This document shows positions 4,684 to 50,621 of a DNA stretch of 64,000 bases, piece by piece. Below the pieces are notes generated by a model, which was given only the letters and a program-made list of their open reading frames with translations, made no database searches and had not been told where the DNA came from. Origin of the DNA: a virus; IMG/VR virus record IMGVR_UViG_3300017917_002466, positions 62,001 through 126,000 of that record; one strand, written 5' to 3'. Made by a program: the position numbers and the translations under genes. How positions within the stretch are numbered: the stretch's first letter is position 1; each line of letters begins with the position of its first letter.

Positions 4684-4786
4684 CATAAATACTCATAGGA
4701 TGTGTTGGGACAGAGGCCGTACACCTTTTTTCGCCCTAACGAAATTACCAACCATCTCTTACCGTCAACCTTTAGGGAGGTATCTT
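4684..4786 (+). promoter_or_regulatory. late-type promoter and pseudoknot leader, copy L1
   Basis: A CATAAATA late-promoter variant at 4684-4691 is followed by a leader that folds as a pseudoknot. P1 pairs GATGTGTTGG with CCAACCATC around a small internal loop. GACAG follows the 5' strand of P1, then a small hairpin. The second helix pairs CCCTAA with TTTAGGG, and its 3' strand runs into the GGAGG of the next gene. Five other copies occur in the window with compensating base changes. Confidence 0.7.
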
Positions 4787-5506
4787 ATGAGTATTATTTA
4801 CAAAATAACTAATTTAATTAACGGAAAGATTTACATTGGTCAACATTATACATCAGCAGATGATGGTTATTTGGGTTCTGGTAAATGGATTAAAAGAGCC
4901 ATTAAAAAGTACGGTAAAGAAAACTTCATACGTGAAACAATTGAGTTTTGTACTTCTGCTAATGTAGACGAAAAAGAAGTTTACTGGGTTAATAAGTTGG
5001 GTGCTACTAATCCTAAAGTTGGATATAATATTGATAAAGGCGGAACTGGTCGTTCACCAGGCTATAAACATTCAAAAGAAACCAAAGAAAAACTCAGACA
5101 AATTAATCTCCAAAGAGAAATAAAACCAGAATGGATAGAAAAATTTAAAAAAGTTAGAAAAGGATATAAACACAAAGAAAAAACTAAAAATAAAATATCT
5201 ATTAAACACAAAGGAATTAAACATTCAGAAGAAACTAAGAAATTATTGAGTTTAGTTTTTAAAGGTTTAACTAAAAAGAAATGGACTAAAAAACGAAAAG
5301 AACAAAGAATTAAAGAAACTATAGAAAACAATAAGTCAAAATCAAAATTTTCATACATTTTATCAAATAATGAAGACTTTTGGCAGTTAAATAAAAAACA
5401 AAGATTTATTATCAAAAGACAATTTCAACGTAAAAATACTGACATAATTGTTTATAAAGGTATAACTATTGAAAGGCATCTTAAAAATGAAAACTTTTCA
5501 AATTGA
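4787..5506 (+). CDS. GIY-YIG homing endonuclease, Seg-like
   Basis: Free-standing homing endonuclease of 239 aa. The N-terminal GIY-YIG nuclease domain carries KIYIGQHYTSADDG near residues 13-26; catalytic Arg and Glu lie in the next 60 residues. The C-terminal half is lysine-rich with NUMOD-type helix-turn-helix repeats (SKETKEKLRQ, SEETKKLLSL). The ATG follows GGAGG and makes the N-terminus collinear with the two other GIY-YIG genes that share this leader. It is inserted between gp32 and the primase, and its last 20 bases overlap the primase start. It probably targets homologous phage genomes lacking the insertion. Confidence 0.9.
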   Translation: MSIIYKITNLINGKIYIGQHYTSADDGYLGSGKWIKRAIKKYGKENFIRETIEFCTSANVDEKEVYWVNKLGATNPKVGYNIDKGGTGRSPGYKHSKETKEKLRQINLQREIKPEWIEKFKKVRKGYKHKEKTKNKISIKHKGIKHSEETKKLLSLVFKGLTKKKWTKKRKEQRIKETIENNKSKSKFSYILSNNEDFWQLNKKQRFIIKRQFQRKNTDIIVYKGITIERHLKNENFSN

Positions 5507-6476
5507 AAATAATATTGCTCTTGAAAGACAAATAAGACTAATATTAAGTAGTTTTAATAACGTTACTTATGAAGATAATTATTATCAATTTAGATGTAAT
5601 GTATGTGGCGATAGTAAAAAATCTAAATCTAAAAAAAGAGCTTATATATTAAAAAATAAGCAACCATATATGATGTATTGCCACAACTGTTTTTATAATA
5701 AGCCCGTTTTTATATGGATGAAAGAATTTTTTCCATCTTATTATAAAAGTTATATTAGCGAAATTTTAACAAATAAACAAAAGGCAAAACCTTTGCCAAA
5801 GATAGAGAATCCAAAGGTAAGAAAGAAGTACGAAGAAAAAGAACAGACTAAGTTTTTTATTCCAATACAGAAGGGAATTACACCACTTTTTGCGAAGGCA
5901 ATTAGAACTTGTATTGACAGAAAAATACCAGAAGAAGTTTGGAGTAAGTGGTTTGTTGCAATAGGTGGTAATTATAATAATCGACTGATAATACCATTCT
6001 TTGACAAATTCGGAAAAATATATTATTATCAAGGAAGAGCACTTTTTGACTATATACAACCAAAGTATCTCTCCCGCAAAGGAGATTTCAATAGCATCTA
6101 CAACTACTTCTTGGTTGACAAAGACAAGCCAGTTGTCATACTTGAAGGGCCAATTGATAGTATCTTCGTAGAGAATTCAATTGCACTAACAGGAGTCAAG
6201 ACCGAGGATAAGAAGCTATCGGAATTTCCACACAAGAGATACCTGATTGACTTTGATGCGACGACCGAGGAAACTAAAAAGAAGACTGTAGAGCTTCTTG
6301 GAAAAGGTGAGTATGTATTCTGTTGGAAGAAGTTTATGAAAGCATTCAATCTTCCAATGAAAGATAAGTGGGATATTAATGACGTTTGTATTCATTTGAA
6401 TAGAGGAAAGTTTGCTTATAGTGAGTTAGAACCTTTCTTTACCAATTCACTTTTTGATAAGGTATTTTTTATATGA
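5487..6476 (+). CDS. gp61: gp61-like DNA primase
   Basis: Lagging-strand primase, partner of the gp41 helicase. 330 aa (T4 gp61 is 342). The N-terminal zinc ribbon shows CNVCGDSK... and YCHNC (two CxxC pairs near residues 30-65). The Toprim core is visible as VVILEGPIDS near residue 210, with the acidic YLIDFDA downstream. The ATG at 5487 is chosen over a TTG 18 bases upstream because it opens with the conserved N-terminal region. The gene start lies within the 3' end of the inserted endonuclease gene. Confidence 0.87.
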   Translation: MKTFQIENNIALERQIRLILSSFNNVTYEDNYYQFRCNVCGDSKKSKSKKRAYILKNKQPYMMYCHNCFYNKPVFIWMKEFFPSYYKSYISEILTNKQKAKPLPKIENPKVRKKYEEKEQTKFFIPIQKGITPLFAKAIRTCIDRKIPEEVWSKWFVAIGGNYNNRLIIPFFDKFGKIYYYQGRALFDYIQPKYLSRKGDFNSIYNYFLVDKDKPVVILEGPIDSIFVENSIALTGVKTEDKKLSEFPHKRYLIDFDATTEETKKKTVELLGKGEYVFCWKKFMKAFNLPMKDKWDINDVCIHLNRGKFAYSELEPFFTNSLFDKVFFI

Positions 6477-6664
6477 CCAAAGAACAAAAAGATTTTATTC
6501 AAGCCCTTTTATCTGAAGTGTATGTAAGAAATAAAGAAGGATTAAATACGTTACGAAAAAATGACGATAATCCTTTAGCAGAAGCCGAATATCTTACGAG
6601 AATGAAATTCATTGAGGAAACGTATAAAGAGGTTGAAAGGTATGGTAAGATGGAAAGTCAATAA
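6473..6664 (+). CDS. small protein of unknown function
   Basis: 63 aa, starting with an ATGA overlap on the primase stop, so translation is coupled. Charged and helical by composition; no recognised motif. Its 3' end overlaps the next small gene by 23 bases, as is common in this tightly packed block. Confidence 0.65.
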   Translation: MTKEQKDFIQALLSEVYVRNKEGLNTLRKNDDNPLAEAEYLTRMKFIEETYKEVERYGKMESQ

Positions 6665-6998
6665 GAACGAAAAGGATAATTATGCAAAGCTCAAAAATAT
6701 GACCGATATTTTGAGCCATAAAGAAAGTATCCTTAGAGAGTTCAAAGAAGATGCTCGTCAACGTCTTGATGAGTGGTTTGAAAAACTTGAAAGTGAAAAA
6801 ATCTTTAACTGGTCAGGTTGGTTTGGTTTTTTTGGTTTAATCGCTCTTCCATTAGTAAGAAGAACTTTTCCAACTTTATTTGCAAACCAGATAGTTGGTG
6901 TTCAGGCTATGTCATCACCAGTTGGCCTTGCATATGCTCTGAGAGTATGTTATAATACCAATGACGAGGATGGTTTAAGTGCCAAAAATAACGTATAA
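6642..6998 (+). CDS. short protein with a gp23-type capsid segment
   Basis: 118 aa. Residues 69-101 (LPLVRRTFPTLFANQIVGVQ, then AMSSPVGLAYALR) match the N-terminal-arm region of T4-type major capsid protein gp23, where VRR, a GVQPM block and PTG-FALR are conserved. The 60 residues before it also resemble the gp23 N-terminal helix region, but the rest of a roughly 500-aa capsid protein is missing. The ATG at 6642 has a GAAAGG Shine-Dalgarno sequence. It sits among replication genes, not head genes. It may be a remnant of an inserted capsid gene or a small protein that uses the capsid arm to bind assembling heads. The family match is fairly secure; the function is unknown. Confidence 0.65.
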   Translation: MVRWKVNKNEKDNYAKLKNMTDILSHKESILREFKEDARQRLDEWFEKLESEKIFNWSGWFGFFGLIALPLVRRTFPTLFANQIVGVQAMSSPVGLAYALRVCYNTNDEDGLSAKNNV

Positions 6999-7582: not shown

Positions 7583-7687
7583 TATAAATAATCATAAGAT
7601 AGATTGGGACAGCTTCGACGGAAGTTTTCTATCCACATTAGAATTACCAATCAATCTCTTACTAATAACCTTATGTGGAGGTATCTT
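7583..7687 (+). promoter_or_regulatory. late promoter and pseudoknot leader, copy L2
   Basis: TATAAATA at 7583-7590. Leader P1 pairs AGAT-A-GATTGG with CCAATC-A-ATCT; GACAG follows; a hairpin CTTC-GACG-GAAG comes next. The second helix pairs CCACAT with ATGTGG, which runs into GGAGG. Compared with L1, both helices have changed sequence but kept pairing. Confidence 0.75.
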
Positions 7688-9472: not shown

Positions 9473-9575
9473 TATAAATACTCATAGATACTTTGAGACA
9501 GCGGATCATTACCGTTTCCTATCCAAGTTAGGATTATCAAAGCATCTCTTACAATAACCTTACTTGGAGGTATCT
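9473..9575 (+). promoter_or_regulatory. late promoter and pseudoknot leader, copy L3
   Basis: TATAAATA at 9473-9480. P1 pairs AGAT-A-CTTTGA with TCAAAG-C-ATCT; GACAG follows, then a CGG...CCG hairpin. The second helix pairs CCAAGT with ACTTGG next to the Shine-Dalgarno GGAGG. Confidence 0.75.
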
Positions 9576-25394: not shown

Positions 25395-25468
25395 GCCCCC
25401 AAAGCATTAAGGTGATGCACTTGGCTCTTAACCAAGAGAAGAAGGTTCAATACCTTTTGGGGGTACCA
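25395..25468 (+). tRNA. tRNA-Lys(CTT)
   Basis: Acceptor GCCCCCA/TGGGGGT, anticodon stem CTTGG/CCAAG with loop CTCTTAA. CCA encoded. Confidence 0.9.
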
Positions 25469-25476
25469 AATTTTTT

Positions 25477-25562
25477 GGCGCGGATGGTAAGTGGTTGAAA
25501 TCAAACGGCTGTAACCCGTTCGCCTCACGGCTATGTAGGTTAAAATCCTACCCGCGTCACCA
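25477..25562 (+). tRNA. tRNA-Tyr(GTA)
   Basis: Acceptor GGCGCGG/CCGCGTC, anticodon stem AACGG/CCGTT with loop CTGTAAC, long variable arm as expected for bacterial Tyr. CCA encoded. Confidence 0.92.
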
Positions 25563-25570
25563 AATTATAT

Positions 25571-25644
25571 AGGCTATTGGTGTAATAGAAACACATTTCT
25601 CTCCAAAAGAAAAGACAAGGGAGCATAACCTTTATAGCCTGCCA
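25571..25644 (+). tRNA. tRNA-Trp(CCA)
   Basis: Acceptor AGGCTAT/ATAGCCT, G73, anticodon stem TTTCT/AGAAA with loop CTCCAAA, CCA encoded. Confidence 0.85.
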
Positions 25645-25651
25645 ATTTTTT

Positions 25652-25726
25652 GCTTCCAAGGTGTTAAGGTTGCATTTCCGTCTTTTAAGCGGTAGGGTCT
25701 TGGTTCAAGTCCAAGTGGAAGCACCA
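25652..25726 (+). tRNA. tRNA-Lys(TTT)
   Basis: Acceptor GCTTCCA/TGGAAGC, loop CTTTTAA, T arm TTGGTTCAAGTCCAA. CCA encoded. The anticodon stem has one mismatch. Confidence 0.85.
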
Positions 25727-25733
25727 AGTTTGT

Positions 25734-25810
25734 GGAACTGTAGCATAATTGGCTAGTGCACCACATTGTCAATGTGGGTTATGCGGGTTCAAATCCCGTC
25801 GGTTCCGCCA
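25734..25810 (+). tRNA. tRNA-Asp(GTC)
   Basis: Acceptor GGAACTG/CGGTTCC, G73, anticodon stem CCACA/TGTGG with loop TTGTCAA. CCA encoded. Confidence 0.92.
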
Positions 25811-25818
25811 TAAGTTAC

Positions 25819-25902
25819 ACCCTCGTCGCCTAGTGGTAATGGCACCAGACTTTTAATCTGACGAGCGCAAGCTCTTCACAGGTTCAAATCCTGTCGGGGG
25901 TA
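25819..25902 (+). tRNA. tRNA with TTT anticodon and a long variable arm
   Basis: Acceptor ACCCTCG/CGGGGGT, loop CTTTTAA (anticodon TTT, Lys), but the variable arm is long with its own stem (GAGC-GCAA-GCTC), as in Leu/Ser/Tyr tRNAs. The 3' end reads ACTA, not ACCA. Amino-acid identity is uncertain. Confidence 0.75.
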
Positions 25903-25914
25903 CTAAAAAGTTAT

Positions 25915-26001
25915 TCCAGAGTATGCAAACTGACAGGGCGGCTTGACTGTTAATCAAGTGTGGGAAACCATCTGTAGGTTTAAATCCTACCTCTGGAGCC
26001 A
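25915..26001 (+). tRNA. tRNA-Asn(GTT) with a long variable arm
   Basis: Acceptor TCCAGAG/CTCTGGA, G73, anticodon stem CTTGA/TCAAG with loop CTGTTAA; variable arm with TGG-GAAA-CCA. Class II shape is unusual for Asn. CCA encoded. Confidence 0.82.
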
Positions 26002-26036
26002 AATATTAACATTTACGGAATAATAAAAAGATATAA

Positions 26037-26112
26037 GGGTCTGTAGCTACAATGATAGAGCGCGAGCCCGTTAAGCTCGGAGATGTCAGTTTAACTCTGA
26101 CCGGACCCTCCA
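26037..26112 (+). tRNA. tRNA-Asn(GTT), second copy
   Basis: Acceptor GGGTCTG/CGGACCC, anticodon stem CGAGC/GCTCG with loop CCGTTAA. Position 33 is C rather than T, which may impair decoding. CCA encoded. Confidence 0.75.
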
Positions 26113-26118
26113 AATCAA

Positions 26119-26193
26119 GCAGTGTAGGCAGATCGGCTATGCGTCACTCTTCCAAAGTGAATCTGGTGAGTTCAACTCTCGCACACTGCACCA
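26119..26193 (+). tRNA. tRNA-Gly(TCC)
   Basis: Acceptor GCAGTGT/ACACTGC, anticodon stem TCACT/AGTGA with loop CTTCCAA. CCA encoded. Confidence 0.92.
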
Positions 26194-26200
26194 AAATTTC

Positions 26201-26274
26201 GGGGGTTTCTTCTAGTGGAAAGAAAACTGTCTCTGAAGCAGATAACGGTGGTTCAATTCCATCAACCCTCGCCA
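26201..26274 (+). tRNA. tRNA-Gln(CTG)
   Basis: Acceptor GGGGGTT/AACCCTC, G73, loop CTCTGAA, T arm TGGTTCAATTCCA. CCA encoded. Confidence 0.83.
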
Positions 26275-26280
26275 AAAAGT

Positions 26281-26460
26281 TTTTAGAAGAAAGCTGGGAA
26301 ACAGAGGTTCAAATCCTCTACTGAAGTTGATTTATAGAAGTATGCTGAATTTACTGGCAGGTAAATATAAGCAGAAAATATAAATCCTTTACAAATCAAA
26401 GCCTGCCAGCCGAGATAAGTAAAGTTCAGTTCATCTAGTGGGAGAATACCTGGCGTATTA
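26281..26460 (+). other. tRNA fragments and a hairpin between tRNA-Gln and tRNA-His
   Basis: No complete gene. An isolated T arm (AGAGGTTCAAATCCTCT) lies near 26305-26321 and an isolated D-arm-like piece (CATCTAGTGGGAGAATACC) near 26433-26451. Between them CTGGCAGG pairs with CCTGCCAG across a 45-nt A-rich loop. These look like remains of deleted tRNA genes. Confidence 0.5.
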
Positions 26461-26461
26461 T

Positions 26462-28815: not shown

Positions 28816-28836
28816 GACGATTAAAAATTTTAAAAT

Positions 28837-28912: not shown

Positions 28913-28929
28913 AGTTTCAAAAATTCTAA

Positions 28930-28985
28930 AGGATGAGTTCAGCAATCAAAAATTCTTATTAAAAAAGAAAACAAGTTCATCCTGT
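28930..28985 (+). ncRNA. R-element copy R1 (in the tRNA array)
   Basis: Closing stem AGGATGA (28930-28936) with TCATCCT (28977-28983), followed by GTG. Conserved loop block GTTCAGCAATCAAAA just inside the stem, then a short A-rich interior. No coding potential. Confidence 0.7.
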
Positions 28986-28993
28986 GAATCAAT

Positions 28994-29080
28994 GGAAGGT
29001 TAGAGCGTAATTAGTAGCGTGTCGGTCTTGAAAACCGAACCCGAAAGGGCCTGGGGATGCGATTTCCTCACCTTCCGCCA
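28994..29080 (+). tRNA. tRNA-Ser(TGA)
   Basis: Acceptor GGAAGGT/ACCTTCC, G73, anticodon stem TCGGT/ACCGA with loop CTTGAAA, long variable arm. CCA encoded. Confidence 0.93.
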
Positions 29081-29086
29081 ATTTTT

Positions 29087-29161
29087 GGGGGATTAGTTTA
29101 TTCAGGAAAACATAAGCCTTGCAAGCTTAAAAGCCCGGAGCGTAGCCGGGATTCTCCACCA
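29087..29161 (+). tRNA. tRNA-Ala(TGC)
   Basis: Acceptor GGGGGAT/ATTCTCC, anticodon stem TAAGC/GCTTA with loop CTTGCAA, T arm CCCGG/CCGGG. CCA encoded. Confidence 0.88.
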
Positions 29162-29167
29162 AATTAT

Positions 29168-29242
29168 ACCAAGTGGCAGGTCAGCATCTGAGGACGTCTC
29201 ATAAGCGTTCTGAATAGGGGTCAGCACCCTAACTTGGTACCA
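29168..29242 (+). tRNA. tRNA-Met(CAT)
   Basis: Acceptor ACCAAGT/ACTTGGT, anticodon stem GACGT/GCGTT with loop CTCATAA, T arm AGGG/CCCT. CCA encoded and followed at once by an AAAGGAG ribosome site. Confidence 0.87.
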
Positions 29243-29256
29243 AAGGAGTAACTTAT

Positions 29257-29564
29257 ATGCCAAAAGCCACAAAGGAAAATCAACCTTAACAGTTGTAGGT
29301 GAAACTGAAGATGGTAAGAAAGTTGTCAGAGGATTGTTTTTAATAAGCACTTCAATAACTGGATTACCTTTAGAAGATTGCTTAGAAATTTTGAAAAAGA
29401 ATAATCTTGTGGTAGATTGGATAGACTTTATAGAAGATGCTATCAAGTATAAATGGAAGATGGAAAGAACATTGATAAAGATAGAAACATCAGTTGAAGA
29501 AGTTTACGGAAAAGAATATTGTCAAGAAGTAATGAAAAGAATTAAAGGATGGGTTCAGCAATAA
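29257..29564 (+). pseudogene. small gene with an early frameshift
   Basis: AAAGGAG at 29242-29248 points to the ATG at 29257, whose frame stops after 10 codons (MPKATKENQP). The coding-like sequence GKSTLTVVGETEDGKKVVRG... continues in another frame to a stop at 29562, with no in-frame start except a poorly placed TTG at 29334. So the gene is broken early, or the sequence has an indel there. Its last codons contain the 5' part of R-element R2. Function unknown. Confidence 0.55.
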
Positions 29565-29665
29565 AAATCCATTACAAGGCGCGTGTCGGTGGTTCGATTC
29601 CATCCGCTCCCACATTACTGGAGTGTAGCTCAGTTGGTAGAGCAGCAAAAAAAAGTCCATCCTGA
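29546..29665 (+). ncRNA. R-element copy R2 enclosing a permuted tRNA-Val
   Basis: Closing stem AGGATGG (29546-29552) with CCATCCT (29657-29663); loop block GGTTCAGCAATAAAAA. The interior holds a tRNA in reversed half order: a 3' half (29571-29614: anticodon loop ATTACAA, T arm GGTGGTTCGATTCCATC, acceptor CGCTCC) and then a 5' half (29620-29646: GGAGTG acceptor, D arm GCTCAGTTGGTAGAGC). GGAGTG pairs with CGCTCC. Read circularly the body is tRNA-Val(TAC)-like. Confidence 0.7.
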
Positions 29666-29678
29666 ATTTATGTAAAAT

Positions 29679-29757
29679 GCCAAGTTCGCATAGCGGTCGA
29701 TTGCGCCTCTCTTGTAAGGAGGAATTACCGGGGGTTCGACTCCCTCACTTGGCTCCA
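29679..29757 (+). tRNA. tRNA-Thr(TGT)
   Basis: Acceptor GCCAAGT/ACTTGGC, anticodon stem CCTCT/GGAGG with loop CTTGTAA. CCA encoded. Confidence 0.92.
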
Positions 29758-29771
29758 GACTATAAAACAGA

Positions 29772-29832
29772 AGACTGGTTCCAGCAAACCAAAACTATTT
29801 GCTTGTTAAGCAAACAAAGTAATCCAGTCTGA
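29772..29832 (+). ncRNA. R-element copy R8
   Basis: Closing stem AGACTGG (29772-29778) with CCAGTCT (29824-29830); loop block TTCCAGCAAACCAAAA (one extra C). The interior is a hairpin TTTGC-TTGTTAA-GCAAA, which has the 5-bp stem and 7-nt loop of an anticodon arm with GTT at the anticodon position. Confidence 0.65.
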
Positions 29833-29860
29833 GTTTAAATTTTTTAAAAAATAATAAATC

Positions 29861-29950
29861 GGTAAAATGGGCGAGTGGTTTATGCCAGCACACTGCTAAC
29901 GTGCCGGGCCCTAAAAAGCTCCACAGGTTCGAATCCTGTTTTTACCGCCA
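29861..29950 (+). tRNA. tRNA-Ser(GCT)
   Basis: Acceptor GGTAAAA/TTTTACC, G73, loop CTGCTAA, long variable arm. CCA encoded. Confidence 0.9.
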
Positions 29951-29957
29951 AATAAAC

Positions 29958-30034
29958 GCACCCATAGTTCAGATAGCAAGAATACGTTCTTGGTAAGAAT
30001 GAGGCGGTTGGTGCAAGTCCAACTGGGTGCTCCA
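29958..30034 (+). tRNA. tRNA-Thr(GGT)
   Basis: Acceptor GCACCCA/TGGGTGC, anticodon stem CGTTC/GAATG with loop TTGGTAA. CCA encoded. Confidence 0.92.
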
Positions 30035-30037
30035 TAT

Positions 30038-30111
30038 GCCACTATAGCTTAATGTAAAGCCTTCGCCTCGTAAGCGAAAAGATTTCATTTCAAATATGAA
30101 TAGTGGCTCCA
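30038..30111 (+). tRNA. tRNA-Thr(CGT)
   Basis: Acceptor GCCACTA/TAGTGGC, anticodon stem TTCGC/GCGAA with loop CTCGTAA, T arm TTCAT/ATGAA. CCA encoded. Confidence 0.92.
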
Positions 30112-30120
30112 AAGATAAAT

Positions 30121-30199
30121 ACCTGTGTATCTCACCAGTCTTCTAAACTGTGTAAGAGTAATTGGATTAATGTGGGTTCAAGTCCCATCACAGGTTCCA
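30121..30199 (+). tRNA. tRNA-Arg(TCT) lacking a normal D arm
   Basis: Acceptor ACCTGTG/CACAGGT and T arm TGTGGGTTCAAGTCCCATC are sound. The anticodon arm CCAGT-CTTCTAA-ACTGT begins only 7 bases after the acceptor, leaving no D arm, while about 22 bases separate it from the T arm. Total length is normal. Either a rearranged or defective tRNA. Confidence 0.6.
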
Positions 30200-30227
30200 C
30201 CTGACAATCAAGGAGAAATATCATATA

Positions 30228-30431
30228 ATGAAACGTAGAGATTTTCTAGGATTTACAATAGCATCCTTACTCTTAGTAGGATGTGCAGCTAGCCCAAATA
30301 TTATATATTATGTTGAGTCAGAGAAAGAAGTTGAATCGATGAGAAAACGATTAGAAGAAAGGGGTGAAAAAGTAGTTGATGTGAAGTTTGATAAAATAAG
30401 TAATTTGTATATCATTAAAATTAAAAAATAA
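30228..30431 (+). CDS. small lipoprotein
   Basis: 67 aa. Signal peptide MKRRDFLGFTIASLLLVGC with lipobox LVGC (Cys19 lipidated), leaving a 48-residue periplasmic or surface part with a short beta-like end. In phages, small lipoproteins of this kind often change the host surface (for example superinfection exclusion); here that is inference. AAGGAG upstream. Sits within the tRNA array. Confidence 0.7.
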   Translation: MKRRDFLGFTIASLLLVGCAASPNIIYYVESEKEVESMRKRLEERGEKVVDVKFDKISNLYIIKIKK

Positions 30432-30445
30432 TTTAAGAAAGAAAA

Positions 30446-30922
30446 ATGAATAAGCAAAATACTAATAAACTTATAAAAAAACATAGATATATGTTTGATG
30501 AATTATTCAGAAGCCGATTAATCAAAAAAGAACAAGATAGATTGGCAGATGAATTTTCAGAAGCTAAAATTGAAGACGATGAAATAAAAATTGCTCAAAT
30601 AATGGAAGAACAAAGACAAGTTGGTTCTTATTATCCAATAGCCTTTGGTTTTGAATGTGGTGATGGATGGTATAAACTTCTTGATGATTTAATGACAGAA
30701 ATTGAAAAAATAGATACAGAAAAGAAGGTTGAAGTTCATCAAGTAAAAGAAAAATCTGGTGGATTAAGATTTTATGCCGAGAATACTTCAAATGAAATAG
30801 AAGATATTATCAGCCGATATATGGATAGATCATATCAAACTTGTGAAATTTGTGGGCAACCAGGAAAAACAAACAAAAAAGGATGGTTGAGAACGGCTTG
30901 TAAGGAACACGAAAGAAATTAA
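30446..30922 (+). CDS. conserved phage protein of unknown function
   Basis: 158 aa. Pattern FGFECGDGWYKLLDDL ... VHQVKEKSGGLRFY ... CEICGQPGKT ... WLRTACKEH is shared by a family of phage proteins with a C-terminal zinc site. Role unknown. 14 bases after the lipoprotein. Confidence 0.75.
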   Translation: MNKQNTNKLIKKHRYMFDELFRSRLIKKEQDRLADEFSEAKIEDDEIKIAQIMEEQRQVGSYYPIAFGFECGDGWYKLLDDLMTEIEKIDTEKKVEVHQVKEKSGGLRFYAENTSNEIEDIISRYMDRSYQTCEICGQPGKTNKKGWLRTACKEHERN

Positions 30923-30930
30923 GAGATTAA

Positions 30931-31016
30931 GCGGTCGTGGAGGAATGGCAGACTCACAAGGCTAAGAACCTTGTGGAAGAAATTCCGTGAGGGTTCAACT
31001 CCCTCCGACCGCACCA
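30931..31016 (+). tRNA. tRNA-Leu(AAG)
   Basis: Acceptor GCGGTCG/CGACCGC, anticodon stem CAAGG/CCTTG with loop CTAAGAA, long variable arm. CCA encoded. A34 in a Leu tRNA is uncommon and would need conversion to inosine for wide decoding. Confidence 0.9.
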
Positions 31017-31105
31017 AATAAAAATATCAAAGAAGCTTTGGAAAAATTAAAACTTACATATAATGGTGGAAATTTCGTAAGAGCAAAGAAAATATTAAAT
31101 GATAT

Positions 31106-31182
31106 GCTGGGGTAGCCCAATTGGTAGAGGCGATTTGTTTAGAGCGAATATGTTGTGGGTTCGAATCCCATCTCCAGTACCA
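31106..31182 (+). tRNA. tRNA with TAG anticodon (Leu CTA) but a short variable arm
   Basis: Acceptor GCTGGGG/CTCCAGT, anticodon stem ATTTG/CGAAT with loop TTTAGAG (anticodon TAG), variable region only 5 nt (ATGTT). Leu tRNAs normally have a long arm. CCA encoded. Confidence 0.78.
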
Positions 31183-31190
31183 AGATTTAA

Positions 31191-31265
31191 GCAGTGTTGG
31201 CCTAATAGTTGGGCGCTAGCCTTCCAAGCTGGTTCAAGTGGGAGCGTTACCCACACACTGCTCCA
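31191..31265 (+). tRNA. tRNA-Gly(TCC), second copy
   Basis: Acceptor GCAGTGT/ACACTGC, anticodon stem CTAGC/GCTGG with loop CTTCCAA, T arm GTGGG/CCCAC. CCA encoded. Confidence 0.9.
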
Positions 31266-31272
31266 AGTTTAT

Positions 31273-31366
31273 GCTAAGATGGTGGAATGGAAAGACACGG
31301 TAGCTTCAGAAGCTACTGAGAACCTTGCTAGTTCTCGTGTAGGTTCGAATCCTGCTCTTAGCACCA
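31273..31366 (+). tRNA. tRNA-Leu(CAG)
   Basis: Acceptor GCTAAGA/TCTTAGC, anticodon stem GTAGC/GCTAC with loop TTCAGAA, long variable arm. CCA encoded. Confidence 0.93.
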
Positions 31367-31374
31367 GAAATTAA

Positions 31375-31449
31375 GCTCTTGTAGTGTAACGTATAGCACG
31401 AGTCGCGTCGAACGATTTAGTGAGGGTTAGATTCCTTCCAAGAGCGCCA
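31375..31449 (+). tRNA. tRNA-Arg(TCG)
   Basis: Acceptor GCTCTTG/CAAGAGC, stem AGTCG/CGATT with loop CGTCGAA. Position 33 is G rather than T. CCA encoded. Confidence 0.75.
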
Positions 31450-31453
31450 ATAC

Positions 31454-31525
31454 ACTTCCTTAGTGAAAAGGAAATAATATTACCCTACGAAGGTAAAGTT
31501 GATGGTTCAAATCCATCAGGAAGTA
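31454..31525 (+). tRNA. tRNA-Arg(ACG)
   Basis: Acceptor ACTTCCT/AGGAAGT, anticodon stem TTACC/GGTAA with loop CTACGAA. No CCA encoded (ends AGTATA). A34 is normal for this bacterial isoacceptor. Confidence 0.83.
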
Positions 31526-31529
31526 TATT

Positions 31530-31667
31530 TTTATAATGTAACTCTCTATGACAATTAGCACAAACAAGAATACATTTATCTAGTTCTTTTTGAAAAATAT
31601 CCCAAATTCTATATTTGGCCTTTGAAAGAGAGAATTCTTTTTTATTCTGGTCTAAAAGGTGTACCAA
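31530..31667 (-). pseudogene. remnant of an HNH endonuclease
   Basis: Minus-strand frame reading EFSLSKAKYRIWDIFQKELDKCILVCANCHRELHYKN, the C-terminal end of an HNH domain (CILVCANCHRELH). The rest of the gene is missing and the frame runs on into tRNA antisense sequence. An old endonuclease insertion that was deleted. Confidence 0.6.
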
Positions 31668-31684
31668 AAAATTATGGAGAAATT

Positions 31685-32074
31685 ATGAATAAATTTAAAA
31701 GTGTAGTTATTAGATCAGCAGAAAATAATATTCACAATAAACAACTAAGAAAAAGAGTTGAATATAGTCTTTCCGCTGACTTTGAATATATACCCAGAGA
31801 AATTGTTGTTTTGATAATTGTCAATGGTAAATATTATTTGAAAAGTAAAAAGGGTGATTATGTAGATGATAAAACTAAAGTTAATGTAGATGCTTTGATT
31901 TATAATAATATTTACTATGCTTATATTTTGGAAAAGCAAAAAAATAAATCAATTACTTTTAAAAAAAAAGAAGACGTTAAAGACAAGAATAAGTATAAAA
32001 ATAAAAATGCCATCGCATTGATTCCTAAAAAATGGATTGAAGATGGAACTATTGTTCTTGATAAAAAAGTATGA
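31685..32074 (+). CDS. protein of unknown function
   Basis: 129 aa from the ATG at 31685, which has TGGAGAA upstream; a longer frame to 31622 lacks a ribosome site and overlaps the HNH remnant. Lysine-rich C-terminal half. No family recognised. Confidence 0.65.
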   Translation: MNKFKSVVIRSAENNIHNKQLRKRVEYSLSADFEYIPREIVVLIIVNGKYYLKSKKGDYVDDKTKVNVDALIYNNIYYAYILEKQKNKSITFKKKEDVKDKNKYKNKNAIALIPKKWIEDGTIVLDKKV

Positions 32075-32075
32075 T

Positions 32076-32149
32076 GCTCCTATCAGCTAACGGTAGGCTT
32101 CCAAACCTTCAATCTGAGAATTAAGTTTCAACTTCCCATAGGAGTACCA
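32076..32149 (+). pseudogene. degenerate tRNA-Glu
   Basis: The acceptor GCTCCTA/TAGGAGT is intact and the sequence parallels the tRNA-Glu at 28028, but the anticodon stem (CCAAA against TCTGA) and T stem no longer pair well. CCA encoded. Probably inactive. Confidence 0.55.
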
Positions 32150-32156
32150 AGTTTAT

Positions 32157-32233
32157 GCGCCTGTAATTCAGTAGAATAGAATAATGGTTTTCTAAACCAT
32201 AAGTCACAGGTTTGAATCCTGTCAGGCGTACCA
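32157..32233 (+). tRNA. tRNA-Arg(TCT), second copy
   Basis: Acceptor GCGCCTG/CAGGCGT, anticodon stem ATGGT/ACCAT with loop TTTCTAA. CCA encoded. Well formed, unlike the copy at 30121. Confidence 0.9.
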
Positions 32234-32241
32234 AATAACAT

Positions 32242-32316
32242 ACAGCTATAGTACAATGGATAGTGCACTAGTTTCCTAAACCTGAAATTCTGGTTCGATT
32301 CCAGATAGCTGTACCA
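32242..32316 (+). tRNA. tRNA-Arg(CCT)
   Basis: Acceptor ACAGCTA/TAGCTGT, loop TTCCTAA (anticodon CCT); two mismatches in the anticodon stem. CCA encoded. Confidence 0.75.
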
Positions 32317-32337
32317 AATTTTATCTCTTTTTATCAT

Positions 32338-32422
32338 AGGAGCCAAGGCAACTGGTTGTGGCCGCCAGTCTTATAAGCTGGGAAACTAAACGAGGTGGGT
32401 TCAATTCCCACGGCTCCTACCA
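32338..32422 (+). tRNA. tRNA-Ile(TAT) with an extended variable region
   Basis: Acceptor AGGAGCC/GGCTCCT, anticodon stem CCAGT/GCTGG with loop CTTATAA; 13-nt variable region. CCA encoded. Confidence 0.85.
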
Positions 32423-32426
32423 AAAA

Positions 32427-32434
32427 TATAAATA
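32427..32434 (+). promoter_or_regulatory. late promoter TATAAATA
   Basis: Octamer 26 bases before the ATG at 32460, with GGAGGGTGA between them. Confidence 0.65.
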
Positions 32435-32459
32435 TTTTCAAATATACAATGGAGGGTGA

Positions 32460-32669
32460 ATGGCACACATCTGCGAATTTTTTCCTTGTCATAAACTAAT
32501 TGATGGGTTTAATTGTAAAAATTGTTATTGCCCACTTTATGACCATACCGATTGTCAACATTTTGGTGGGGAACCTAAATTTCTTTACTCAAAAGGGGAG
32601 AAAATAAAAGACTGTTCAGATTGTATTCTCCCTCATAAGCCAGACTTTAAAATACAAACAAGATATTGA
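32460..32669 (+). CDS. cysteine-rich small domain protein
   Basis: 69 aa with ten Cys. The pattern CEFFPCHK ... [12 protein letters not shown] ... [11 protein letters not shown] matches the Cys-rich small domain family (FFPCH, NC-CYCPLY, K-CS-C--PH). Function of the family is unknown; it probably binds metal. Late promoter and strong Shine-Dalgarno sequence upstream. Confidence 0.82.
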
Positions 32670-32694
32670 CATTTTACAAGGATGATATTATATT
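32666..32694 (+). promoter_or_regulatory. sigma70-type promoter inside the tRNA array
   Basis: TTGACA 32666-32671, 17-bp spacer, TATATT 32689-32694; the next tRNA starts 9 bases later. Confidence 0.8.
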
Positions 32695-32702
32695 AATAAT
32701 AT

Positions 32703-32778
32703 GCCTGTTTCTTCTAGTGGTATAGGAAGTTTGCCTTACAAGCAGAAAACGATGGTTCGATTCCATCAATAGGCACCA
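32703..32778 (+). tRNA. tRNA-Val(TAC)
   Basis: Acceptor GCCTGTT/AATAGGC, anticodon stem TTTGC/GCAGA with loop CTTACAA. CCA encoded. An intact Val(TAC), so the permuted one at 29546 is not the only source. Confidence 0.9.
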
Positions 32779-32785
32779 AATATTT

Positions 32786-32856
32786 ACTCGTTTAGTTCAA
32801 CGGAAGAATATCTGTTTGACGTACAGAAGACAATAGTTCAACTCTATTAACGAGTA
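32786..32856 (+). tRNA. tRNA-Val(GAC)
   Basis: Acceptor ACTCGTT/AACGAGT, anticodon stem TCTGT/ACAGA with loop TTGACGT. No CCA encoded. Confidence 0.85.
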
Positions 32857-32917
32857 TAAAAACAAATTATGATTCGTTAAATTATGGTAATGGACAAAAA
32901 ACTAAACATAAAAATAA

Positions 32918-32991
32918 GCGGAAGTAGTTCAACGGTAGAATGCGACTTTGCCAAGGTTGAGACAGGAGTTCAACTCTCCTTTTCCGCACCA
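32918..32991 (+). tRNA. tRNA-Gly(GCC)
   Basis: Acceptor GCGGAAG/TTTCCGC, anticodon stem CGACT/GGTTG with loop TTGCCAA. CCA encoded. Confidence 0.88.
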
Positions 32992-32997
32992 AATTAC

Positions 32998-33074
32998 TGG
33001 GGTGTTGCCTAATGGATCAAGGCGCGGGTCTTTGAAGCCTGTCCGTGAAGGTTCAATTCCTTCCACCCCAACCA
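32998..33074 (+). tRNA. tRNA-Gln(TTG)
   Basis: Acceptor TGGGGTG/CACCCCA, anticodon stem CGGGT/GCCTG with loop CTTTGAA. CCA encoded. Confidence 0.92.
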
Positions 33075-33130
33075 GATAAACATAAATATTAATATAGGAT
33101 TTGATTTTGAACATTTTAAAGGAGGTTTGT

Positions 33131-33433
33131 ATGAAGATGGTTCCGTTGTACAATAAGTTGATTGTTGAACTTCTTCCCGAAGAGTCCGAAAAGAGATCAG
33201 CAACAGGTTTAATTCTTCCGGGAAAAATTTCTCCGTATTACAGGGGAAAGGTGACTGGTGTTGGTAAAGGTCATTATCAAAATGCTCAAAGAATTCCAAT
33301 GGATGTTAAGGAAGGAGATATTGTAGTCTTCTTAAAGAACTGTGGAATGGGAATTGAGTTTGATAACGGAAATAACCCAACAAAGCTTATTTTGGATGAT
33401 ACAAATATTTACGCAGTAGAGGAAAACGACTAA
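33131..33433 (+). CDS. groES: GroES-like co-chaperonin
   Basis: 100 aa. Cpn10 family: N-terminal VPLYNKLIVELLPEE, mobile-loop region around ATGLILPGK, then GKVTGVGKG and VKEGDIVVFLKNCGMGIE, ending in the final beta strand. T4 encodes a functional analogue (gp31) for folding the capsid protein. The ATG at 33131 has AAAGGAGG upstream. Its position inside the tRNA array is notable. Confidence 0.87.
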   Translation: MKMVPLYNKLIVELLPEESEKRSATGLILPGKISPYYRGKVTGVGKGHYQNAQRIPMDVKEGDIVVFLKNCGMGIEFDNGNNPTKLILDDTNIYAVEEND

Positions 33434-33488
33434 ATTGTCACAGCCAAACTGGGAATTTTAGATCAAAAATAAAAAAATTGTATATAAA

Positions 33489-33573
33489 TGCTCTGGTGGT
33501 GGAATTGGTATACACATCACGCTTAAGACGTGATGCCCGTAAGGGATTGGGGGTTCAACTCCCCCCCAGAGTA
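33489..33573 (+). tRNA. tRNA-Leu(TAA)
   Basis: Acceptor GCTCTGG/CCAGAGT, anticodon stem TCACG/CGTGA with loop CTTAAGA, long variable arm. 3' end reads ACTA. Confidence 0.9.
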
Positions 33574-33583
33574 CTAAATTAAT

Positions 33584-33663
33584 GCTCCGGTAGCCCAACT
33601 TTGGTAGAGGCCGTAAGCTCAAACCTTACGTTAGTGTGGGTCCGAATCCCATCCGGAGTACCA
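33584..33663 (+). tRNA. tRNA-Leu(CAA) with a short variable arm
   Basis: Acceptor GCTCCGG/CCGGAGT, anticodon stem GTAAG/CTTAC with loop CTCAAAC. The body resembles the TAG-anticodon tRNA at 31106, including the short variable region. CCA encoded. Last tRNA of the array. Confidence 0.83.
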
Positions 33664-47407: not shown

Positions 47408-48115
47408 TTAATTATAAAGATTATAAGATTTTAATAAGTCTCTAAAATATTTTCTACATTTATTATATTTTTTAGAAAGATAAGAAATTAATCCTCTTTT
47501 ATTACCAAAGATTTTGATTTCGGATTTTAACCATTCTTTTTCTTTATATTCAATTTCTTTTTGACTTAAAAGTTTATCAGAGATTTCTTTTGACAAGTTA
47601 TAAGCTTTTTTACGCCCAATTTTTAATTTTGTACAAATATAATAAATAGAAAATCCCTGATTATAAAAGTTAATAAATTTTTTAATAACATCTTCATCTA
47701 TATTTTTATATTTTCCATTTTTATTTCCTAAATGATTTTTTCTATTTATTTCTGATTTTCCAGCAATTCTTAACTTTTCTAAAGTTTCTTTTTTATAAAT
47801 TCCTACTTTACCTTTATTCCACGGATTTGTACCTTGTCTAAAATTACCGTTTCCAAAAGTACAAATATTATAACCAATATTTGGATTTGTAGCACTTAAT
47901 TGATTTATCCAATAAGTTTCTCTTTCGTTTACGTCAGCAGAAGTACAAAATTCAATTGTCGTCCTTTGAAATTTTTCTTTACCATATTTCTTTAATGCTT
48001 TTTGAAAAACTTTACCAGAACCTAAATAACCATCATCTGCTGATGTATAATGTTGTCCAATATAAATTTTTAAGTTCTCTAAACATAAAGTTTCGTAGAT
48101 AATATAAGTACTCAT
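47408..48115 (-). CDS. GIY-YIG homing endonuclease
   Basis: 235 aa. N-terminal GIY-YIG domain KIYIGQHYTSADDGYLGSG nearly identical to the genes at 4787 and 7688; C-terminal helix-turn-helix (GFSIYYICTKLKIGRKKAYNL). ATG follows GGAGG at the end of leader L4. Inserted downstream of RtcB in the leftward block. Confidence 0.9.
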   Translation of the reverse strand: MSTYIIYETLCLENLKIYIGQHYTSADDGYLGSGKVFQKALKKYGKEKFQRTTIEFCTSADVNERETYWINQLSATNPNIGYNICTFGNGNFRQGTNPWNKGKVGIYKKETLEKLRIAGKSEINRKNHLGNKNGKYKNIDEDVIKKFINFYNQGFSIYYICTKLKIGRKKAYNLSKEISDKLLSQKEIEYKEKEWLKSEIKIFGNKRGLISYLSKKYNKCRKYFRDLLKSYNLYN

Positions 48116-48220
48116 AGGAACCTCCCATAAAGGATTATTGTATGAGATGGGCTGGTAATCCAGTTATGGGCAGGAAAAGGGAGCTACCCTCTGTCCCAAC
48201 TCATCCTATAAGTATTTATA
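48116..48220 (-). promoter_or_regulatory. late promoter and pseudoknot leader, copy L4
   Basis: TATAAATA on the minus strand (48213-48220). P1 pairs GATGAGTTGG with CCAGCCCATC; GACAG follows, then AGGG...CCCT hairpin. The second helix CCCATAA/TTATGGG runs into the Shine-Dalgarno sequence. Confidence 0.75.
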
Positions 48221-48221: not shown

Positions 48222-49535
48222 TTAATCCCTATCATAACCATCACCAGCCTTCATATTCAGAATTGGTATAATTCTGTTTATGATTTTAGCTGTTGGCTCA
48301 ATAGCTTTTTCAATTATTTCTGGATTTTTATAAGCTAAAGGAGACTCGTCTTTTGGTTTTTGTGATGCGTAAACTCCTTTCATAGCTTCGTTAGCCATTT
48401 CATCAGTAATAGTTTTTTTAGCTTGCGATCTTGACATTAGTCTTCCAAATCCGTGCGGAGCCGAGCAATTCCATTCAGTATTTGATTTCCCCTCACAAAT
48501 TAAAGAACCAAAAGAAGGACTTCCGGGAATAATCATTCTCTCACCCTTATAAGAACGGATAGAACCCTTACGGATAATGAAGTCACGGAAGTCAATAAAG
48601 TTATGGACAGTCTCAATCCTGTCAATCTCGTTGACTCCAAGAATCTTCAAAATGGCTGAGGCGATATAAGCCCTATTGACTTCCGCATACTTCTGTGCGA
48701 AAATCATATCATACAAGTATCCGTTTGCATTCTCACCCTCTAGGTACTGAAGCTCGTCGGAAACAATAGCATCCAAACCAAGCTCAGCACGAGCCTTCTT
48801 GATTTGAGCCTTGATTTCCATACCAGTATAGGTCTTACGGATTTCATCAATACGAGACTTCAACAAATCCTGCTTATCCTTACGGACAACAGAAGAAGCC
48901 ATATTCTGCCAATAGTCACATACACACTTTCCAAAGTTACGAGAACCAGTGTGAATTACAATCCAATAGTTACCATTGTCGTCCTTTCCAATTTCAATGA
49001 AGTGGTTACCCCCACCAAGCGAACCAAGTGACTTAACAGCACGACCAAGGTTAGCACCAATGTCATTGCACTTCTGAACGAACCAACGATAGTCATATCC
49101 ATCAAAGTACGAGTTGGTTCCAAACTTCTGATTGTAGGCCAATGAGAAGTTATGAGCCAATCCACGAACTTCGCGGTATGGGAAATCCCTTTCCATATTG
49201 AGAACGGACTTATCGTGAGTCTCAATACCAAAAGGAACTGACTGACGAATCTTGTGGTCAAGCTGTTCCAAAGCGATAGGAAGGTTCTGGCCGATGTTGA
49301 TTGCCAACATTCCACAGCCAATATCCACAGAAACAACGGCGGGAATTATCTTCTCTGACATTTCCATTGTAAATCCAATACAGCTAGACTTACCAGAATG
49401 ACAGTCAGGCATAATAGCAATAGGATTAGTAAAAGCAGGATGATTAGACATTTGAGTAATTTGAGCAACACAAGACTCCTCAACATTGTCAATCATTACT
49501 TTAGCCTTCGTATACTTACCAACAATCTCAAACAT
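48222..49535 (-). CDS. rtcB: RtcB-like RNA ligase
   Basis: 437 aa from an ATG 6 bases after GGAGG. RtcB joins 2',3'-cyclic phosphate or 3'-phosphate ends to 5'-OH ends, in tRNA splicing and RNA repair, using GTP and Mn. Signature motifs: IMPDCHSGK near residue 42, VDIGCGM near 70, SLGGGNHFIEI near 165 and a C-terminal CSAPHGFGRLMSR containing the guanylylated-His region. In Enterobacteria rtcB shares an operon with rsr (Ro) and Y RNAs; this phage also encodes a Ro-like protein, 5 kb away. Confidence 0.93.
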   Translation of the reverse strand: MFEIVGKYTKAKVMIDNVEESCVAQITQMSNHPAFTNPIAIMPDCHSGKSSCIGFTMEMSEKIIPAVVSVDIGCGMLAINIGQNLPIALEQLDHKIRQSVPFGIETHDKSVLNMERDFPYREVRGLAHNFSLAYNQKFGTNSYFDGYDYRWFVQKCNDIGANLGRAVKSLGSLGGGNHFIEIGKDDNGNYWIVIHTGSRNFGKCVCDYWQNMASSVVRKDKQDLLKSRIDEIRKTYTGMEIKAQIKKARAELGLDAIVSDELQYLEGENANGYLYDMIFAQKYAEVNRAYIASAILKILGVNEIDRIETVHNFIDFRDFIIRKGSIRSYKGERMIIPGSPSFGSLICEGKSNTEWNCSAPHGFGRLMSRSQAKKTITDEMANEAMKGVYASQKPKDESPLAYKNPEIIEKAIEPTAKIINRIIPILNMKAGDGYDRD

Positions 49536-49548
49536 TACCATCCTCCAA

Positions 49549-49873: not shown

Positions 49874-50470
49874 CTAAACCCAATATTGTTCCCACTCCAA
49901 TAGATTCTTGAAAGGAGAATAGTGCTTCTGACCCTCAATGACTAAGTGCCAATTTTCCCAAGGAGCTTCTATCGTAGGAAACCAACCTTTCTTCTTTGCA
50001 TTTTTTATTGCTTCTTCTGGGCTTTGCCCGTTGATAAGATTCAAGGTCATAAATGCACCAAAGTATGGTTGTACATTGTTCCTTTCACAAATTCCAAATC
50101 CGTGTTCAAGAATCTGGCGAACTCCATCCTTACCGATATGACCTTCTTGATAGATGCTATAAAGCCTTCCACTATGAATGAAGTTGTGGCAAGAGTGACA
50201 AAGGGCTACGATTTCTCTTAGTTCAATTCTTCCAGTTTCCCATTCAATATTGTAGTCTTCGTGGGCTTCTAACCACTTATGAAAGTCCGCATTGATTTTA
50301 GGAACACCGCAAGCCCAACATCTATAGTCATGTTTAGCGTAGGCTTTCTGTCTTTGTTCATCCCACCACCATCTACCGAGAATCGTTCTTGGATTCAAAG
50401 TGTGTAAAGGTTTTGGTATATTCGGTGAGGCTAATAGCGATGGCCTCCAAAAGTTAGAAGAAATTTCCAT
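49874..50470 (-). CDS. HNH-like protein
   Basis: 198 aa from the ATG at 50470 (AGAGGGT upstream). YRCWACGVPK ... LEAHEDYNI ... LREIVALCHSCHNFIHSGR is an HNH-type zinc/nuclease domain; the C-terminal 70 residues are a conserved phage extension. Its wide presence as an ordinary phage gene suggests a resident role rather than homing. Confidence 0.72.
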   Translation of the reverse strand: MEISSNFWRPSLLASPNIPKPLHTLNPRTILGRWWWDEQRQKAYAKHDYRCWACGVPKINADFHKWLEAHEDYNIEWETGRIELREIVALCHSCHNFIHSGRLYSIYQEGHIGKDGVRQILEHGFGICERNNVQPYFGAFMTLNLINGQSPEEAIKNAKKKGWFPTIEAPWENWHLVIEGQKHYSPFKNLLEWEQYWV

Positions 50471-50486
50471 AATTAAACCCTCTAAT

Positions 50487-50515
50487 AAGATAACATTTTC
50501 ATATTGTTTTGTCAA
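50487..50515 (-). promoter_or_regulatory. sigma70-type promoter (minus strand)
   Basis: TTGACA (complement of 50510-50515), 17-bp spacer, TATCTT (complement of 50487-50492) with an extended -10 TG. 17 bases before the HNH-like gene. Confidence 0.83.
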
Positions 50516-50518
50516 AAG

Positions 50519-50621
50519 TATAAATATATTTGTGTAGAGAGACAGCGACTGATCCTCGTTTCTTTGCCTTAACCAAGGATTATCTCTATACATTACCTCA
50601 ATTCCTGTTAAGGAGGATTTT
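50519..50621 (+). promoter_or_regulatory. late promoter and pseudoknot leader, copy L5
   Basis: TATAAATA 50519-50526, divergent from the minus-strand promoter. P1 TGT-AGAGA with TCTCT-AT-ACA; GACAG; a CGA...TCG hairpin. The second helix CCTTAAC/GTTAAGG includes the Shine-Dalgarno AAGGAGG. Confidence 0.75.

Follow-up and report, generated by a model that had tools for sequence, protein, structure and literature searches.

Homing endonuclease genes (HEGs) in a 64,000-nucleotide stretch of viral DNA (the window, bases 62001-126000 of the 253,664-base virus record IMGVR_UViG_3300017917_002466) follow a recurring leader that, judging from its letters here and in other viral loci, probably represents a phage RNA family that brakes translation, for the most part that of mobile nuclease genes. 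A first-pass annotation of the window had described five such leaders, in each of which an interleaved helix covers the ribosome site, and all five (L1 to L5) are confirmed in the window's letters at the positions it named. Only in a few T4-type cases is it known what keeps the cutting activity of free-standing homing endonucleases at a tolerable level; if this reading is true, unrelated nucleases would share a regulator that forms a module in itself, either acquired or brought along.

Fold and pairing of the sense form

Read from the five window leaders and twelve more from the same genome, the layout is a P1 5' strand, GACAG, the P2 hairpin, UUU, the P3 hairpin, AUUA and the P1 3' strand, followed by a linker; next comes a strand that can pair with the P3 loop and leads into the Shine-Dalgarno (SD) sequence, which amounts to a pseudoknot. 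The RNA of this sense form is, as predicted from covariation, a three-way junction with a pseudoknot at the SD. Of the shared order described in the first-pass annotation, P1, P2 and the loop-SD helix stand, and the P3 stem around the loop had been overlooked; a plain two-helix H-type pseudoknot is rejected, the supposed 5' strand of the second helix being the hairpin loop of P3. The P3 stems of L1 to L5 are TTCG/CGAA, TCTA/TAGA, CCTA/TAGG, an imperfect CCTG/CTGG and CTTTG/CAAGG, respectively. P1 extends to the junction, since the R preceding GACAG has its pairing partner in the Y of ATTAYC (GA/TC or GG/CC), and the contiguous pairs of P1 number 5-6 (interrupted) in L1-L4 and 10 in L5.

Further viral copies were gathered by pattern scans, and copy numbers throughout are minimum values, one scan being confined to the matches listed. 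The patterns combined with a structural parser gave at least 106 distinct hits in viral loci and 0 in reversed sequences, a control run on loci that had been picked by the forward motif; chance probably accounts for one or more of these hits (L201, score 21). Copies redundant in loop and flank were removed from the sets. For the sense set (64 copies) a P2 no longer than 16 nt, an SD and a start codon were required; hits with parser scores below 22, locus L155 and the mirror-like loci L084, L136, L262 and L264 (by hand) were left out, and copies seen only in a first rule scan or in a later search with the covariance model R1 were not added. R1 was built from 63 sense copies, four of them window leaders (L4 is not among these). 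Because its P3 stem is imperfect, L4 was missed by the parser, and it was found by the pattern, the first rule scan and R1; the parser also missed at least three copies of the same genome that R1 found (genome positions 54584, 159849 and 186754). Locus L035, which carries a replication initiator gene, was omitted from the sense alignment and from the tests on 62-63 copies, and is still matched by R1 with an expectation value (E) of 1.9e-10.

The concerted change of the helices, proposed from five leaders, is borne out in the wider alignment of 63 sense copies, where the covariation score is 0.660 against 0.239 after shuffling (reached in 0 of 500 shuffles). Similarly, 81.6% of cells are paired against 58.2% in shuffles, and 300 cells are changed on both sides against 113, each again with 0 of 500 shuffles, and the covariation score falls to 0.12-0.22 when the 3' partner is shifted by 1-3 columns. 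A lack of covariation in a wider alignment had been named as decisive against the leader; both the sense set and the mirror set described below covary. In 64 of 64 sense copies the P3 loop pairs through 6 bp or more with the SD side of the same copy, whereas swapped partners give a mean of 13.6 and a maximum of 19 (200 rounds), which makes the pseudoknot copy-specific. The first rule scan required loop-SD pairing and the later parser did not, and the 64 of 64 is therefore not circular. That the pseudoknot covers the ribosome site also holds, as in 61/63 copies the paired strand shares at least 2 nt with the SD hexamer; in 45/63 this strand stops 7-9 bases short of the start codon.

Two further features of the hairpins were observed. 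Among 51 distinct P2 sequences of sense copies, 36 have a loop with a 4-base palindrome against 14.3 in shuffles (maximum 24 in 5000), the palindromes being AGCT, TCGA, TGCA, GATC, CATG, GGCC, GTAC and a few others, with window examples at 4714-4726 and 48190-48178; such self-pairing loops suggest possible kissing dimers. A subclass of P3 reads TTTCCTGAAACC....AGTAAGGATTACC (L009, L023, L034, L057, L094, L108 and others), with GAAA opposite AGTA, which we take to resemble the bulged-G (loop E) motif.

The mirror form

The same core occurs in 35 copies upstream of a HEG that reads away on the opposite strand. The mirror pattern gave 47 distinct matches, mixed with sense copies and chance matches. 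In this mirror form it is the P2 loop, on the GACAG strand, that repeats the complement of the HEG's SD region, over at least 6 nt in 31/35 copies against a mean of 4.9 with swapped partners (maximum 12, 500 rounds); the match has a mean length of 7.1 bases, against 4.4 with partners exchanged. The other five comparisons (reverse complement, right flank, P3 loop) gave 0-4 of 35. Locus L292, a miss in the loop test, was excluded from the mirror alignment, which covaries at 0.608 against 0.214 (0/500 shuffles), with three pairs that lie within the search pattern never or hardly varying. TAAATA stands on the left flank in 29/34 copies and TATTTA on the right in 34/34 (reversed controls 0 and 1), and by their letters these flanks are convergent, late-promoter-like octamers. 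The loop complementarity is as expected of an antisense RNA, which would be transcribed from the mirror strand.

The two forms recognize each other in model searches. At the loci, the sense-trained R1 matches 33/34 mirror copies at E<=1 (below 0.01 for 30), and R2, its counterpart built from the mirror set, has 28 rows at sense copies (best E 9e-13, 25 below 0.01) and none in 10/36 sources; the pattern letters shared by both forms contribute to this cross-matching. The 11 R2 matches considered of 13 listed are mostly sites within the 35, with repeats of 6-9 nt in 11/11 and a frame on the HEG strand in 9. On the genome of the window, R2 matches one sense copy at E 2.4e-7 and L4 at 0.24. This genome also has a mirror copy of its own at genome position 20538, selected by no pattern and divergent (GACAT; CTTACC for ATTACC), the P2 loop of which contains TTTGACTC; this is complementary to GAGTCAAA, which lies in the SD and spacer region of the opposite-strand HEG (L376). 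A HEG of phrog_3339 follows a sense leader in L017 and this divergent mirror copy in L376.

Genes behind the RNA

The use of the leader by unrelated nuclease families, first proposed for GIY-YIG and HNH, is upheld and extends by Pfam to GIY-YIG, HNH and TnpB, in addition to a DUF723-type group. Families were scanned in 51 sense and 26 mirror open reading frames (ORFs), 13 sense and 8 mirror copies being without a frame of 60 amino acids. The sense ORFs (Pfam, E<=0.01) match NUMOD3 (15), DUF4379 (8), two GIY-YIG families (7 each), DUF723 (6), DUF7487 (5), GIY-YIG (5), HNH_3 (3) and OrfB_IS605 (2), and their named PHROGs, among the 25 listed, are homing, HNH and other nucleases, with an 'NAD synthetase' label as the sole exception. 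Ten unclear sense ORFs that were checked singly comprise six nucleases, three replication initiation genes and one of no known function (L036). The mirror ORFs match HNH (4), DUF7487, DUF4379 and DUF723 (3 each) and GIY-YIG and NUMOD3 (2 each) by Pfam, and their PHROGs are mostly nucleases; L264 and L258 match none, L258 being GIY-YIG-like by eye, and L319 matches only unknown-function families. We read the DUF723 group as presumably Vsr-like, its label in PHROGs being HNH.

TnpB follows the sense leader in L088 and L102 and, by eye, accompanies the mirror form in L296 and L302. On this sequence evidence, a predicted RNA-guided nuclease is in L088 under the same leader as classical HEGs. The same locus has a leader (4282) before TnpB and a RAGATH-18 RNA (5562-5625) behind the gene, the RAGATH-18 hit lying about 1.2 kb downstream of the leader and behind the TnpB frame.

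Promoters and the outer hairpin

The late-promoter association proposed at first is retained in part: TAAATA lies within 45 nt upstream in 40/64 sense copies and is missing from 24/64, and is thus not essential. Several of the 24 have TATAAT-like boxes near P1 (by eye), and promoters of different types thus seem to start the RNA close to P1, as predicted from the letters. GACAG follows 9-17 nt past the octamer in 35/40 copies having one; because this places the junction downstream of the octamer, it should be included in late transcripts, if they begin at the start site generally assumed for such promoters.

An outer inverted repeat of 13-22 bases (one mismatch, G-U allowed) links the start codon to the late-promoter region in L1-L3, L018, L019, L022, L026, L027, L028, L031 and L049, where the gene begins ATGAGTATT or nearly so, and L4 has a similar repeat by eye. 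It exceeds the 99% level of swapped controls in 6/62 copies, most of the 62 being without it. In the design described for I-TevI, segB and mobE, read-through transcripts are hidden by a hairpin and late ones escape (PMC2988022). Given this match, window leaders L1-L4 seem composite, with an old hairpin outside and a new junction inside.

Comparison with known RNAs

The C4 antisense RNA of phages P1 and P7 (RF01695) is alike in its three helices at a junction and in a P3 loop (b') that pairs at the ribosome site of the next ORF on the same transcript, as here in 64/64 sense copies; when the Rfam consensus is set against the P1 sequence, the C4 P3 loop matches the b2 target before icd. Loop b' of C4 is described as partly covering the ribosome site and RNase P as cutting the precursor (PMC5320573). 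As for differences, the C4 consensus is without the GACAG, UUU and AUUA junction, and C4 has a second antisense stretch, a', from which the AUUA here differs, is excised by RNase P at the base of P1 and guards icd/ant. Membership in C4 was rejected, as RF01695 has no hit in the window and 15 loci at gathering thresholds nor at the L014 leader at E<=10; P1's own c4, the positive control, scores 68.8 bits with this model, and phage P1 has no match by R1 (E<=0.1) or R2 (E<=0.01). With a shared logic, a different junction and negative models, we contend that the leader would work like C4 and should not be filed as C4.

Other Rfam families were likewise rejected, as Rfam 15, run on the window and 15 loci at gathering thresholds, gave none at the leaders; elsewhere in the scanned sources it found tRNA, a group I intron and RAGATH-18. 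At the L014 leader only sub-threshold hits (E<=10) appeared, and at the L088 leader none. The preQ1-II and SAM-II riboswitches are SD-covering pseudoknot leaders in which a pseudoknot strand merges with the SD, and differ from the present leaders in that no Rfam match was found at those of the window or the 15 loci (gathering thresholds). In IS10, RNA-OUT exerts antisense control over translation of a mobile enzyme; the mirror form differs in having a copied anti-SD loop within a conserved junction, rather than being a mere antisense of the mRNA. The ribosome-site hairpins of T4 type (I-TevI, I-TevII, I-TevIII, segB and Aeh1 mobE) are alike in hiding a HEG SD near a late promoter, and the similar outer repeat of L1-L3 (L4 by eye) adds to the likeness; the published account has late transcripts starting inside the hairpin and escaping (PMC2988022), whereas here the junction follows the octamer. 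No description of such an RNA at homing or HNH endonuclease genes was found in the open-access papers searched.

Proposed mechanism and alternative explanations

We propose that the junction (P1, P2 and P3 joined by GACAG, UUU and AUUA) presents a loop that serves as antisense against a single gene's SD region. In the sense form, to which all five window leaders belong, the RNA would be the 5' part of the mRNA and the P3 loop would pair in cis at GGAGG, where it would compete with the 30S subunit and hinder initiation. In the mirror form, a small antisense RNA driven by a separate late promoter may act in trans on the HEG mRNA through its P2 loop. Either way little nuclease would be made, the benefit presumably being that a DNA-cutting enzyme stays low or late, and some trigger may relieve the repression. 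With a little under an even chance, in our estimate, one fold is a portable governor re-aimed at unrelated genes by one loop, the cis and mirror antisense arrangements being two wirings of one brake, and GIY-YIG, HNH and DUF723-type enzymes, RNA-guided TnpB and replication initiators being its targets. If true, this would be a new RNA family beside C4 that uses SD-directed pairing and would place TnpB and classical HEGs under one control; swapping two short strands should then re-aim the brake, and cis and trans control could be compared on the same scaffold.

Several observations weigh against the proposed brake. Energy folding without pseudoknots returns the proposed P1, P2 and P3 for L1 and L2 only, with L3-L5 folding otherwise, and its z-scores for the leaders (-0.2 to -3.5) are unconvincing by themselves. 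Pairs with double-sided change number 17/17 in the sense alignment, a non-discriminating figure (shuffles mean 15.7, 95/500 reaching 17), and 14/18 in the mirror alignment, where shuffles give 11.9 and 30/500 reach the observed value. On the GACAG strand, G-U exceeds A-C in the sense set (56 vs 36) and in the mirror set (26 vs 12), which favours this strand as the folded RNA, with p about 0.02 each on an assumption of independent cells that fails; within the mirror repeat the direction of wobble is even (5 vs 5). The paired strand lies outside the SD hexamer in 2/63 copies, as in the TnpB copies L088 and L102. With regard to a single family, R1 at whole-record scale (E<=0.1) found nothing in 5/7 records with mirror loci, and R2 missed this genome's own mirror copy at 20538. 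Replication initiation families (PHROGs) follow the leader in L035, L046 and L126, or 3/51 sense ORFs, so that nucleases dominate the targets and do not exhaust them; L117, L292 and L320, known from R1 or the first rule scan, have replication genes by eye, and the RNA before replication initiation genes is a sequence feature hinting at a use in temperate phages. Finally, in seven cultured phages with Seg-like HEGs (from 30 rows listed of 859 records) the leader was not found, so that HEGs do not need it.

The letters GACAG, UUU and AUUA remain constant while the helices change, a constancy that also counts against us in being partly by construction, as GACAG, TTT and ATTA lay in the search patterns; variants such as GACAAG and GACAT exist. 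Constant letters amid changing helices, as in aptamers, and a pseudoknot located at the SD could also mean a riboswitch or protein operator, in which a small molecule, or a protein of the phage or its host, would bind the junction, make or break the pseudoknot and so switch the nuclease. We consider this unlikely, given the part of the search pattern in the constancy and given targets as unrelated as nucleases and replication initiators, which disfavour a metabolic ligand. By analogy with C4, the sense leader might instead be cut free of its mRNA and repress other copies or an incoming phage, and both the shared layout (P1, P2, P3 and a P3 loop at the ribosome site of the next ORF) and a mirror form that already looks trans-acting speak for it. 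Cross-repression would be poor, however, because loops differ between copies, as the swapped partners indicate, and as the junction letters differ and neither R1 nor R2 finds C4 in P1, such an RNA appears rather improbable.

It can also be asked whether the leaders represent only the known design of I-TevI, segB and mobE, with early read-through transcripts hidden by a long hairpin, late ones starting inside it and being translated, and the inner structure incidental. The design is already published (PMC2988022), and the outer repeat is present in L1-L3 and eight relatives (L4 by eye), but the small share of copies above swapped controls (6/62) and an inner junction that is strongly covarying, has loop-SD pairing in 64/64 and is placed after the octamer make this highly improbable. 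Much the same low credence is given to a translation enhancer or standby site, in which the fold would aid ribosome loading or stabilise the mRNA 5' end; a structure close behind the promoter and strong SDs would fit, and a pairing that covers part of the SD in 61/63 copies would not. We see barely any chance that the element acts at the DNA level, as a folded single strand or inverted repeat for homing or recombination, or as a convergent-promoter module. The core does occur on either strand relative to the HEG, octamer-like sequences stand at both ends of mirror copies and leaders persist beside decayed HEGs, yet loop-SD matching in both arrangements and the placement at the SD have no DNA-level reason, and the excess of G-U over A-C on one strand argues, weakly, in the same direction.

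The leaders of the window

The late octamer that was said to open each leader is TATAAATA in L2-L5, whereas L1 has the variant CATAAATA. On the window, R1 matches all five leaders with E 4.7e-14 to 4.8e-8, the sole other match at E<=5 having E 0.71, and the pattern GACAG N15-45 ATTAYC occurs 8 times against 1.54 in shuffles (maximum 5, 100 shuffles), 5/8 being the leaders. In L1 the octamer variant (4684..4691, plus strand) is followed by the three-way-junction RNA at 4697..4759 (R1 41.0 bits, E 4.8e-8), divided by the parser into the P1 5' strand (4697-4708), GACAG (4709-4713), P2 (4714-4726), UUU (4727-4729), P3 (4730-4743), AUUA (4744-4747) and the P1 3' strand (4748-4759). The P3 loop CCCTAA (4734..4739) is the 5' strand of the pseudoknot and TTAGGG (4772..4777) its 3' strand, which runs into the SD GGAGG at 4776-4780, and the gene at 4787..5506 is a HEG of GIY-YIG type (by eye) with NUMOD3.

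Genes of the same type, by eye and with NUMOD3, follow L2 (7688..8542) and L3 (9576..10274), both on the plus strand. L2 comprises the octamer at 7583..7590, the junction RNA at 7596..7658 (56.6 bits, E 4.5e-12), the P3 loop TCCACAT (7632..7638) and the pseudoknot 3' strand ATGTGGA (7673..7679), which overlaps the SD GGAGG at 7677-7681, and L3 the octamer at 9473..9480, the RNA at 9485..9548 (64.3 bits, E 4.7e-14), the loop TCCAAGT (9522..9528) and the strand ACTTGGA (9562..9568), which overlaps GGAGG at 9566-9570. L4, on the minus strand, has its octamer at 48213..48220 and its RNA at 48144..48207 (51.7 bits, E 8.4e-11, outside the training set), with the loop CCCATAA at 48170-48164 and the pseudoknot 3' strand TTATGGG at 48124..48130 overlapping GGAGG at 48125-48121; the N-terminus of its HEG (47408..48115, minus strand) resembles the L1 and L2 proteins by eye, with no Pfam hit. 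L5, on the plus strand, has the octamer at 50519..50526, the RNA at 50529..50594 (56.0 bits, E 6.3e-12), the loop CCTTAAC at 50567-50573 and the strand GTTAAGG at 50607..50613, which overlaps GGAGG at 50612-50616, and its HEG (50622..51227, plus strand, GTG start) is of HNH type from its motif, by eye and with no Pfam hit.

Occurrence in this genome and elsewhere

Across the genome, R1 finds 17 places below E 1e-5 in addition to the weak one at 20538 (E 0.08), and all 17 strong copies precede a HEG or HEG remains, as we read their flanks. At genome positions 23187, 54584, 158808 and 171352 the gene after the leader is cut short, and at 27107, 159849 and 186754 the leader is followed by the apparent tail end of an HNH gene, which suggests joint travel and joint decay of leader and gene. 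Against cultured phages, blastn with the leaders gave short pieces only, none covering 80% of the query, blastn with leader and gene matched either nothing or just part of the gene, and tblastn with part of one mirror HEG gave no match. In bacterial genomes the pattern selected 25 stretches, of which two are true by eye (L344 and L359); R1 matches both at E<1e-9, the best of the other 32 sources having E 0.006.

Around the window leaders, an HNH-like ORF (by eye) at 49874-50593 on the minus strand overlaps L5 if its first ATG is used, and its true start is probably further in. An RtcB RNA ligase gene (48222-49541, minus strand) lies directly upstream of L4, in a phage that is rich in tRNA, with 33 hits at 25395-33660 of the window and one at 46207 on the minus strand. 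The gp32 of this phage is nearest to those of T4-like Synechococcus phages, with 48% identity over 76% of the protein.

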